Source: Desulfomonilia bacterium (GTDB lineage Bacteria > Desulfobacterota > Desulfomonilia > UBA1062). Taken from it: a DNA stretch of 64,000 bases. The notes below the pieces were generated by a model. The model made no database searches. It was not told where the DNA came from and saw only the letters and a program-made list of their open reading frames with translations. Below, in pieces: positions 28,548 through 32,612 of the stretch; position 1 is the stretch's first letter, and each line of letters opens with the position of its first letter. The DNA lies in NCBI GenBank assembly GCA_036567785.1, contig DATCTV010000062.1:310001-374000 (forward strand), written 5' to 3'. The position numbers and the translations under genes are program-made.

Positions 28548-29342
28548 ATGAAGAAAAAGCTTATATTTGCGATCCTGTGCATTTCAGCTCTTATGAGTGT
28601 TTCAGGAAGCATTCAGGCCGCGGATGATTCATGGAACAAGGTTAAGGCAAAGGGGGAAATTTTAATAGGGATTGATGATGCATTTCCGCCGATGGAATTC
28701 CGCAATGAAAAAAACGAACTTGTAGGATTTGATATCGACGCATCGAAAGAAGTAGCCAGACGCCTTGGCATAAAGGTCAAGCATGTTCCTACGGCATGGG
28801 AAGGCGTTATAATGTCGCTCAAGGTCGGCAAGTTCGACATGATATGGTCGGCGCTGTCGGTTACCCCTGAAAGGGAAAAAGAGATCTTGTTTTCAAATCC
28901 TTATATACTCGAAAAGCAGATCATGGTCGTAAAGGCCGGCAACAAAAAAATAAAGAGCGTCAAGGACCTCAATGTTAAGAATGTCGTGGGTGTCCAGCTG
29001 GGAAGCACATCGGAAGAGGCGCTCAAGAAGCTAAATATAAAGTTCAGAGAAGTAAAGCGCTATGACAAGAATACATCCGCATTTATGGATTTGAAAATAG
29101 GCAGGATAGATGCCCTTGCCGTTGATGAGCTTGTAGGGCGGTATTATCTTTCTCAGCGTCCTGGAGAATATGCGGTTCTGCCTGAGCCTCTAACATCGGA
29201 GCCTATCGGCATCGGCTTCAGAAAATCGGATGCGGCGTTGAGGGACAAGGTTCAGATGACGCTTGATTCCATGTTTGCAGACGGGACTATGAAGAGGATA
29301 TCAATAAAATGGTTCGGGGATGATATCACGACAAATAAGTAA
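28548..29342 (+). CDS. Amino-acid ABC transporter, periplasmic binding protein
   Basis: 264 residues: signal peptide ending near I-Q-A-A (residue 25), then a family 3 solute-binding fold. It has the conserved I-G-I-D-D-A-F-P-P-M-E-F start, G-F-D-I-D-A-S-K-E-V-A-R-R-L and a Trp-rich W-E-G-V-I-M-S-L motif, as in glutamine, arginine and histidine binding proteins. Preceded by CGAGGAGG. The permease gene starts 23 bases inside it and the ATPase gene follows, making a complete polar amino-acid importer. Confidence 0.93.
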   Translation: MKKKLIFAILCISALMSVSGSIQAADDSWNKVKAKGEILIGIDDAFPPMEFRNEKNELVGFDIDASKEVARRLGIKVKHVPTAWEGVIMSLKVGKFDMIWSALSVTPEREKEILFSNPYILEKQIMVVKAGNKKIKSVKDLNVKNVVGVQLGSTSEEALKKLNIKFREVKRYDKNTSAFMDLKIGRIDALAVDELVGRYYLSQRPGEYAVLPEPLTSEPIGIGFRKSDAALRDKVQMTLDSMFADGTMKRISIKWFGDDITTNK

Positions 29343-30357
29343 ATATAATAGCGCGGTCTTTTTCGCGTCCTCTGTTCTATTGATATTTATTTGCCTTTTA
29401 TCATTAAGGGCTGATGCGGCTCCGTCAGCAGTCGAACTGCTCTCGGAAGGCACGAAGGCTCAGCAGGAAGGCAGGCTTGACGATGCGCTCGGATTTTTCG
29501 AGGCTGTCCCGGCCCCTCATGACAGTAATGACCCCGGCGCCTTCGTGCGTGCAAGGATTGAGGCCGCCAGGATATACTACAGCCGTGGTGAATATTCGAA
29601 AGCATCAGGCATCTGTGCCGAAGTGCTCGGTCTTTATCCGGACAACCTCGAGGCAAAAAATCTCATGTCTCAGGCTGATGCGGCTATGACACCCGGATGG
29701 CTCAGATTCATCAAGGACATGAATACCTATCTGCCGACCCTTATGAAGGCCTCTGCCATGACCCTCATCCTTGTTTTTGTAACCATGCTTGTGTCCCCGA
29801 TCGGAGGGCTTTTTGCAGCCCTGGGGAGGATAAGCAGGGTAAGGTTTCTTTCTTATATCTGCTGGCTGTATATCTGGATATTCAGGGGGACACCCCTTCT
29901 GCTTCAACTGTTTTTCATCTATTACGGACTGCCGCAGCTGGGAATCACGCTTAAACCTTTTACGGCAGCTGTGCTTGGGCTCGGGATAAACTATTCCGCC
30001 TATCTGGCTGAAATAATAAGAGGTGCGATAGAAAGCATCGAATCCGGACAGATGGAGGCGGCCAAGTCCTTAGGCATGACATACGCTCAGGCGATGAGAA
30101 GAATCATAATCCCGCAGACATACAAACGGCTTGTCCCGCCAGTTGGAAACGAATTCATAGCACTCATCAAGGATACCGCCCTTGTCTCGACCATTGCCAT
30201 GGTTGAGCTGATGCGTTCGGCAGACCAGATATTCAATGCGACATTCAACATATTCATTCTGGTTCAGGCTGCGATCATTTATCTTATCATGACCAGCATC
30301 TTCACACTGGTTTTTAAACGGATCGAGGACAGACTGGGGGTCTATGAAAACCGATGA
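29320..30357 (+). CDS. Amino-acid ABC permease with N-terminal signal peptide and TPR domain (fusion)
   Basis: 345 residues, about 120 longer than GlnP/HisM permeases. Residues 1-34 form a signal sequence (hydrophobic, ending A-D-A-A). Residues 36-120 hold two TPR-like helical hairpins ([16 protein letters not shown], then [10 protein letters not shown]). From about 128 on comes the HisM-type permease with membrane helices and the E-A-A-K-S-L-G-M loop that contacts the ATPase. HisM-type permeases start in the periplasm, so a periplasmic TPR domain is topologically sensible. It overlaps the binding-protein gene (23 bases) and the ATPase gene (4 bases). Confidence 0.9.
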
Positions 30358-31112
30358 TTGAACTTAAGAATGTCATCAAGCGATTCGGCGATCTCATAGC
30401 CGTTGATAATGTGAGCCTCAATATCGAAAAGGGCGAGAAGATCGTAATCATAGGACCTTCGGGGTCAGGGAAATCGACTCTTCTAAGGATGATTAATTTT
30501 CTGGAAAAAATCGATGAAGGGCAGATACTCCTGGGCGGAAAAGAAGCCGGATATAAAAGAGACAAGCACGGAAGACTCGTTTTCGACAAACAGGAGAATA
30601 TCTGCAGACTGCGATCGGAAGTGGGCATGGTTTTTCAGCACTTTCACCTGTTCCCTCATATGACGGTAATCGAGAATGTCATGGAAGGCCCTGTGACCGT
30701 CAAGAAGATTAAGAAGACGGATGCAAGAGAGATCGCACTGTCTCTGCTGGAAAAGGTAGGGCTCCTTGACAAGGAGAATACATATCCGGCCTTCCTGTCA
30801 GGGGGACAGAAGCAGAGGGTGGCGATCGCAAGGGCTCTCGCGATGCAGCCCATGATAATGCTCTTTGACGAACCGACTTCGGCGCTCGACCCGGAGCTTG
30901 TCGGCGAGGTGCTGAACACAATACACGCTCTTGCGGAAGAGGGTATGACCATGCTGATCGTGACGCATCAGATGGGGTTCGCAAGGGAGCTTGCCGACAG
31001 GGTGATATTCATGGATAACGGCCGCTTCATATTTGAGGGTCATCCGGATGATCTTTTCTCGGATACGATGGAGCATCCCCGCATCAAGGCGTTTCTTGCA
31101 AAGGTAATTTGA
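30354..31112 (+). CDS. Amino-acid ABC transporter ATPase (GlnQ/HisP type)
   Basis: 252 residues with Walker [10 protein letters not shown], the Q-loop in [12 protein letters not shown], the signature L-S-G-G-Q-K-Q-R-V, Walker [13 protein letters not shown] and switch histidine in V-T-H-Q-M. An insertion of about 15 residues after the first helix (around [10 protein letters not shown], residues 63-72) is longer than in E. coli GlnQ. Last of three overlapping transporter genes. An M20 peptidase lipoprotein follows after 33 bases. Confidence 0.95.
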
Positions 31113-31145: not shown

Positions 31146-32612
31146 ATGAAGCATGCAATTGGAAGGATATTCATTTTATTACTTGTTACCATGCTCATAG
31201 CCGCCTGTGCGCATGCGGGCAAGGTGGAGCAGTATCCGAAGGTCGATCCCGTAAAAGTAGACAGAGACCTCGCATTAAAGCACCTGAGCGAAGCCGTGCA
31301 GTTCAAGACTGTATCTCCGGAAGAAGGAAAGCCGTTCGACGACAAGCCTTTCCTTGATATGCAGAACTGGATGAAAACCGCGTTTCCGATGGTAAATAAA
31401 AACCTGAATCTCGAGGTCATAAACAAATATGCGCTTTTGTTCAAGTGGCAGGGAAGCAATCCATCATTGAAGCCAGTCATATTCATAGCACATATGGACG
31501 TCGTGCCTGTTGAACCGGGTACGGAAAACACCTGGAAATATCCGCCCTACAGCGGGGCGATTGCTGAAGGTTTTGTATGGGGCAGGGGATCTCAGGATGA
31601 CAAGGCATCTGTTACGGCTCTGCTGGAAACGATTGAAATACTTCTGAATCAGGGGGTAAAACCCGATCGTACGATATATCTCGCGTTTGGTTTCGATGAA
31701 GAGACCAGCGGCTATGCCGGGGCTGCAAAGATTGCTGAACGGCTCAAGGCGGAGGGCGTCACACCCGAATTCGTACTCGACGAGGGCGGGGCGGTCAAGA
31801 CGGACGGATTTCCCGATATAGGCGTCAACTGCCCCATTGCAGGCATCGCCATAGGAGAGAAAGGATATCTGACCCTGGACTTGATAGTCGAGGATAAAGG
31901 CGGCCATTCGTCAGCGCCCGGGCAGCATGGACCGGCAGGCATCCTGGCAAGGGCCATCACAAGACTTGAAAACAACCAGTTCCCGGCCGACCTGAAGCTC
32001 GTAAAGACGATGATTATCCCGCTTACTCCACAGATGCCGACATATCTCAGTTTCGTGCTGAAAAACACATGGCTGACAGGACCTCTTGTTAAATCCATAC
32101 TTTCGGAGGATCCTTTCATGGATTCCTTGCAGAGGACGACTATTGCGGTGACGATGATTGAAGGAGGCGTTGCCGAAAATATCATCCCACAGAGGATGAG
32201 TGCAAAGGTTAATTTCAGGATAAGGTCGGGCGATACGGTTGAGTCGGTTATTGCGAGGACAAAGAAAGTCATTGATGATCCCCGGGTCAAGATCGTCGCC
32301 GGGCCCGTAAAAAACGATCCCACACCGGTTTCAAGTGTTACATCTCCTGCTTACAAACTACTTATGAAAACGACATGCCAGATACTCAAGGATGACCGAA
32401 CACTGCTGTTTTCTCCTTACATCAACAATGGAGCTTCGGATTCGAGGTTCTATAAGGTGCTTACACCGGATGTATATGGCTTCCTGCCGCTCTATCTGAC
32501 AGATGATGAGATTGATTCAGAACACTCTTCGAACGAGCGTACCCCTGTCGATGCCTATATAAAAATGATCCAATTCTATGCTCAGATAATGAAGGAGGTT
32601 CAGAAGAATTAA
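31146..32612 (+). CDS. M20 family metallopeptidase, lipoprotein
   Basis: 488 residues. Lipoprotein signal ending M-L-I-A-A-C (Cys21). The M20 catalytic domain shows I-A-H-M-D-V-V-P (metal His and Asp), G-R-G-S-Q-D-D-K-A, F-D-E-E-T-S-G (base and metal Glu), L-D-E-G-G and a last His in S-E-H-S-S-N-E-R. A dimerisation domain is inserted in the middle. Size and pattern match the carboxypeptidase S/PM20D1-type branch. Just downstream of an amino-acid importer, it could release amino acids in the periplasm for uptake. Confidence 0.9.
   Translation: MKHAIGRIFILLLVTMLIAACAHAGKVEQYPKVDPVKVDRDLALKHLSEAVQFKTVSPEEGKPFDDKPFLDMQNWMKTAFPMVNKNLNLEVINKYALLFKWQGSNPSLKPVIFIAHMDVVPVEPGTENTWKYPPYSGAIAEGFVWGRGSQDDKASVTALLETIEILLNQGVKPDRTIYLAFGFDEETSGYAGAAKIAERLKAEGVTPEFVLDEGGAVKTDGFPDIGVNCPIAGIAIGEKGYLTLDLIVEDKGGHSSAPGQHGPAGILARAITRLENNQFPADLKLVKTMIIPLTPQMPTYLSFVLKNTWLTGPLVKSILSEDPFMDSLQRTTIAVTMIEGGVAENIIPQRMSAKVNFRIRSGDTVESVIARTKKVIDDPRVKIVAGPVKNDPTPVSSVTSPAYKLLMKTTCQILKDDRTLLFSPYINNGASDSRFYKVLTPDVYGFLPLYLTDDEIDSEHSSNERTPVDAYIKMIQFYAQIMKEVQKN

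Follow-up and report, generated by a model that had tools for sequence, protein, structure and literature searches.

To the question of how the free solute-binding proteins (SBPs) of ABC importers find and engage the permease, and whether permeases actively recruit them, the known answers are lipid anchoring and direct fusion. In GlnPQ, the substrate-binding domains (SBDs) are located N-terminal to the transmembrane domain, outside, and are joined to it by a linker (PMC8025302). In the TPAT (TPR-protein-associated TRAP) system (TatT/TatP/TatQM), the SBP of the TRAP transporter is bound by TatT, a TPR protein of the periplasm (PMC5812351). TatT is a lipoprotein in its own right (PF16811) that forms four TPR-like hairpins and has a hydrophobic pore (PMC10942540, PMC5812351). 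Here, we report the analysis of an amino-acid ABC permease with an N-terminal TPR domain, encoded within a stretch of 64,000 nucleotides (the window, to which all coordinates refer unless another locus is named).

This permease resembles GlnPQ (Lactococcus GlnP and its relatives) in combining a HisM-type permease, N-terminal extracytoplasmic domains, a single ATPase and a homodimeric organization (PMC8025302), the latter being presumed here. However, GlnPQ fuses SBDs on a flexible linker of 19 aa, whereas the present protein has a TPR domain on a short conserved link, contains no SBP_bac_3 match, and is served by a separate soluble SBP. With TPAT it shares a periplasmic TPR module within an SBP-dependent importer. 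In contrast to TPAT, which comprises the TRAP subunits DctQM and a separate TatT lipoprotein, the operon encodes an ABC permease and an ATPase, and two canonical TPRs are fused to the permease. Residues 138–345 constitute, both by sequence and by fold, a full member of the group including Art(QN)2, HisQMP, TcyL, and EhuCD (solved structure 4yms), but the members of this group lack an N-terminal TPR and begin at about residue 130–138 of the present protein. In the open-access papers searched (subscription journals and database annotations being outside the search), neither a TPR-bearing ABC permease for amino acids nor an equivalent transporter was found described; the sequence-only reading of this DNA likewise knew of none. 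Each of the parts is known, but there appears to be no description of their combination, or of its having arisen once and persisted in three classes.

Operon structure and gene content

The operon consists of three genes:
28548–29342, + strand: family 3 SBP, secreted and soluble, the first gene (SBP_bac_3, 4e-42).
29320–30357, + strand: TPR-permease fusion of 345 aa, a single uninterrupted frame whose start codon overlaps the SBP stop.
30354–31112, + strand: ABC ATPase, the third gene (ABC_tran, 3.6e-37; EhuA/TcyN/GlnQ-like).

The frames are adjacent and overlapping. The frame of the fused permease shares 23 nt with the end of the SBP frame and 4 nt with the beginning of the ATPase frame, so that the three genes look like one translationally coupled unit. 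The SBP matches SBP_bac_3 with 143 bits and the ATPase matches ABC_tran with 128 bits; a family 3 SBP and a GlnQ/HisP-like ATPase within one operon are characteristic of polar amino-acid importers. Judging by its gene content, the operon probably encodes a type I ABC importer of a polar amino acid, composed of an SBP, one permease, and one ATPase.

The best named profiles for the SBP, TIGR01096 and PRK11260, both score under their cut-offs, the SBP profiles being mixed, and no equivalog cut-off that would name the substrate was reached in the profile search. The SBP retains Arg (in TPER) and Asp (in AVDE), aligned with those of AncQR; these residues we take to be ligand contacts. Near the expected ligand site, it departs from most relatives at D44 (in IDDAFPPM), W100 (in IWSG/IWNG), and G197-R198, and such departures at conserved positions suggest an unusual substrate. 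Directly downstream of the operon (31146–32612), there is a gene for an M20 peptidase with a lipoprotein-like signal (LIAAC); among the examined genomes, this arrangement was observed only here.

Domain architecture of the fused permease

The following parts of the protein were delineated:
29320–29421, + strand: signal sequence, residues 1–34, with a hydropathy maximum at 11–29 and a probable signal peptidase I site ADA|A at 31–34; the N-terminus of relatives is signal-like and fast-evolving.
29425–29688, + strand: predicted periplasmic TPR domain, residues 36–123, comprising TPR1 (37–62), TPR2 (73–105), and a cap helix (110–123).
29509–29568, + strand: residues 64–83, a conserved loop together with the first part of helix A of TPR2 (consensus PAPxxGEDGGxFVRSRMxxA), better conserved than any other part of the domain outside the scaffold.
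29689–29730, + strand: short conserved link, residues 124–137 (P125, W127, F130, D133), which continues directly as the helix of TM1 and has an identity of 0.74 within family f1.
29731–30354, + strand: complete HisM/GlnP/TcyL-type transmembrane domain with the EAA loop, residues 138–345.

Thus, the part in excess of an ordinary permease is the first 137 residues, while the remaining 208 form a typical ABC permease of the polar amino-acid type. The latter contains a BPD_transp_1 domain (5e-24, residues 162–339, above the Pfam cut-off) and a HEQRo_perm_3TM domain (101.2 bits against the cut-off of 42.2, residues 138–235), which, together with the EAA loop, are the attributes of HEQRo 3-TM type polar amino-acid permeases. 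Its best solved relative is 4yms, which covers profile positions 135–341 (Foldseek E-value 3e-11).

The N-terminal part matches TPR_19 with 26.9 bits at the Pfam gathering score of 25, and with 31.1 bits when residues 35–124 are scanned alone. Only 8/18 family members match TPR_19 at the E-value of 0.01, hence the repeats are divergent. In the AlphaFold2 model, helices 37–49/53–62 and 73–88/92–105, followed by helix 110–123, are predicted with pLDDT of about 84–96 and correspond to two TPR hairpins and a cap; the model is weakest in the C-terminal third of the permease, not in the TPR domain. The small residues expected at positions 8 and 20 and the proline expected at position 32 of the 34-residue helix-turn-helix repeat are in register (A56, A83, A95/S95, P107). 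One continuous helix, 126–171, joins the TPR domain to TM1 in the model.

The signal-like segment has a hydropathy maximum of 2.51 and a basic n-region with no acidic residue. The signal-peptidase motif varies among relatives, a strict AxA being present in 10 of the 41, and therefore cleavage of the signal peptide is only putative.

The EAA loop of ABC importers is cytoplasmic, and it is there that the ATPase is met. Since three transmembrane segments (TM1–TM3) separate the TPR domain from this loop in the AlphaFold2 model, the domain is predicted to be on the periplasmic side, and therefore needs a signal sequence to get there. The loop after TM1, which is K/R-rich with three basic residues and no acid, and the arrangement of hydrophobic segments also fit a periplasmic TPR.

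The sequence-only reading had proposed a signal sequence (1–34) and two TPR-like hairpins preceding a complete HisM-type permease, in a topology coherent with a periplasmic TPR. Its coordinates and domain limits proved right within a few residues, the TPR assignment is borne out by a TPR_19 score above the gathering threshold, and the proposed topology agrees with the three segments preceding the EAA loop.

Distribution of the fusion and conservation of the operon

Of the 24 genomes of the window's family, 18 carry the full-length fusion (in two of them truncated where the contig ends); it was seen in none of the 18 genomes of the sister family from the same class. A phylum-wide sample yielded six further genomes with the fusion, belonging to four other families. 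Sampling the classes of two of these revealed the fusion in 45/195 genomes of a second class and 6/192 genomes of a third class of the same phylum; every match in these samples begins near the profile start. Overall, the fusion occurs in three classes and about ten families of one phylum. None was seen in 39 individually chosen genomes, mostly from other phyla and including a few deltaproteobacterial ones; coverage here is thin, and the distribution in other phyla rests on these genomes and a pattern scan of limited sensitivity.

The order of SBP, TPR-permease, and ATPase genes is retained wherever the contig reaches, both in the window's family and in the loci read in other classes, with the SBP gene always upstream and the ATPase gene always downstream of the fused permease. 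The overlap of the start codon with the SBP stop is common to most members of the window's family. With the same operon found in all three classes, the fused permease has no constant neighbors other than the SBP and ATPase genes. The sequence-only reading had pointed to other genomes as the place to look for the same fusion beside a family 3 SBP, and it is indeed found there in dozens of species from three classes; such recurrence of the whole architecture is beyond chance. On the other hand, its suggestion that the TPR might dock the M20 peptidase is unsupported, as the peptidase gene adjoins the operon in this window only, being absent beside it in 17/17 same-family relatives (three of them on short contigs) and in more distant loci. 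The patatin and isocitrate-dehydrogenase-like neighbors were ruled out as TPR partners for the same reason, not being conserved beside the operon in relatives.

Several groups of matches were rejected as fusions. Long matches in Burkholderiales, judging by their extent, appear to cover two neighboring permease genes, and matches on plasmids are below 35% identity throughout; no fusion was identified in either group. Standalone TPR matches in family f2 (L035, L037), considered as a possible split fusion, are secreted TPR proteins of the ordinary kind, and no transporter gene was evident next to them.

Origin of the fusion

A maximum-likelihood tree was constructed for permease domains only, with TPR columns excluded, from 46 fused and 47 unfused sequences. 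All 46 fused permeases fall into one clade with support of 100/100, implying one change of state; a smaller tree likewise has a single fused clade. Hence the tree indicates one fusion event in one phylum. No loss of TPR was seen within this clade, and no member of it starts near residue 120, as would homologues lacking the extra part.

The nearest unfused relative found is a permease of Peptococcaceae UBA5318 (L044/L201), 52% identical, although its placing in the tree is unsure and its branch is long. Its operon has the same order of SBP, permease, and ATPase genes, but the permease, encoded by a frame of just 226 aa, lacks both the signal and the TPR.

Selection and conserved surfaces of the TPR domain

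In twelve close pairs, dN/dS of the TPR domain is 0.03–0.30, compared to 0.02–0.07 for the permease, values that clearly point to purifying selection on the TPR. Within family f1, identity is 0.55 for the TPR and 0.85 for the permease; between clades it is 35% for the TPR, 72% for the permease, and 51% for the SBP. Given that the TPR diverges between clades much faster than the permease, its contact surface, if any, should be small or drifting. Positions A56, A83, L103, P107, and A112 are near-invariant, and in a set of 41 sequences the scaffold positions are conserved as expected. In the same set, five predicted concave positions of TPR2, assigned by the repeat register and not from model coordinates, are better conserved, with a mean entropy of 1.25 bits, than the other exposed positions of TPR2, with 1.85 and 2.21 bits. 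The basic region of TPR2 is formed by R77, R79, and R/K84.

Distance covariation (mirror-distance) between the TPR and the SBP is 0.53 within family f1 and 0.25 outside it, where covariation of the TPR with the ATPase is higher (0.49); thus, this measure did not single out the SBP as the TPR partner.

The C-terminal tail of the SBP (29316–29339; also the SBPs of L104–L118, L158–L163, and L184–L203) is nearly fixed within each clade, as WFGDDITxWK in family f1 and WFAEDITNPKK(F/W), i.e., WFAEDITNPKKF/W, elsewhere, in some cases with an added K. It is a possible ligand of the TPR; a part of the tail motif is present also in TPR-less SBPs.

Possible function of the TPR domain

We tentatively favor, as the best of the readings considered, that the TPRs are a module for docking a partner in the periplasm, with the cognate SBP as the likeliest candidate, and act via the conserved basic face of TPR2 and the preceding loop. 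The operon has a single permease gene; by analogy with known type I importers, the transmembrane core would therefore be a homodimer and carry two TPR domains. These would be situated at the periplasmic mouth, where the SBP docks, on short helical stalks continuous with TM1, and could capture and orient the partner by the basic side of TPR2 (R77, R79, and R/K84 with M80 and S88) and the loop before it. The SBP would then be held close to the permease by a protein contact, as GlnPQ holds it by covalent fusion of binding domains. The SBP is the leading candidate for two reasons. Firstly, it is the only periplasmic protein always co-encoded with the fusion. Secondly, a periplasmic TPR protein binds the SBP in TPAT TRAP transporters, an analogy that makes such docking plausible.

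A broader proposal, that this is a new architecture of ABC importers and the ABC counterpart of TPAT, is possible but on the doubtful side: a permease-borne TPR pair would recruit a free SBP, so that Gram-negative cells would capture it as efficiently as with a fused SBP while keeping the SBP exchangeable, with possibly several SBPs per permease. If the permease does have a built-in protein-docking module, this would be a third answer to the recruitment question beside lipid anchoring and direct fusion. The fusion occurs also in complete genomes and hence is testable in tractable hosts, with TPR-less relatives as a natural control.

Instead of the SBP, the TPR could dock another periplasmic or envelope protein, e.g., an outer-membrane or peptidoglycan-bound protein or a substrate-supplying enzyme, encoded elsewhere, and so place the importer. 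Proteins are the usual ligands of TPR domains, the surface of the TPR changes more from clade to clade than the SBP does, as might fit differing partners, and no neighbor gene besides those of the SBP and ATPase is constant. Yet no candidate is co-encoded, the M20 peptidase being confined to the window, and a partner conserved over three classes but never linked would be hypothetical; we regard this explanation as rather doubtful. Were it correct, the TPR domain would hint at a hitherto unrecognized complex in the envelope of these bacteria.

It is unlikely, in our estimate, that the TPR is purely structural, for example packing on its own copy or on periplasmic loops and thereby stabilizing the homodimer or limiting entry to the translocation path. 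In favor of such a role, the link to TM1 is short, conserved, and apparently rigid, and TPR proteins can self-associate, e.g., the TatT trimer (PMC5812351); however, the basic residues conserved on what is predicted to be the concave face go beyond the needs of a scaffold, and the nearest TPR-less homologue (L201) has the same gene set. That the TPR is recently acquired baggage of little or no function is very improbable: its identity is indeed below that of the permease, but it is found in every known clade member, across about ten families and three classes, with the low dN/dS and near-invariant positions noted above. Finally, an artifact, i.e., a frameshift, a wrong start, or a chimeric assembly in which a TPR gene abuts a permease gene, against which the sequence-only reading had cautioned, has practically no chance of explaining the data: nothing was found in its favor, and all 46 fused products are homologous and the same full-length open frame recurs in many independent assemblies, including the single-contig genomes G318, G470, G517, G446, and G686.

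Other atypical amino-acid permeases

The genome that contains the window has a second amino-acid ABC operon (contig C30, L167:5412–6218), whose permease is extended at the N-terminus in another way, by a stretch that adds a hydrophobic segment and contains no TPR. A 600-aa protein (L204:1894–3696, G009:C60) consists of two HisM-type permeases head to tail, and its operon also encodes an ATPase and a family 3 SBP; similar frames of 597–633 aa are widespread in other genomes of family f1. In family f47 of the same phylum, two loci (L165, L166) encode GlnP-like SBP-permease fusions of 513–516 aa.
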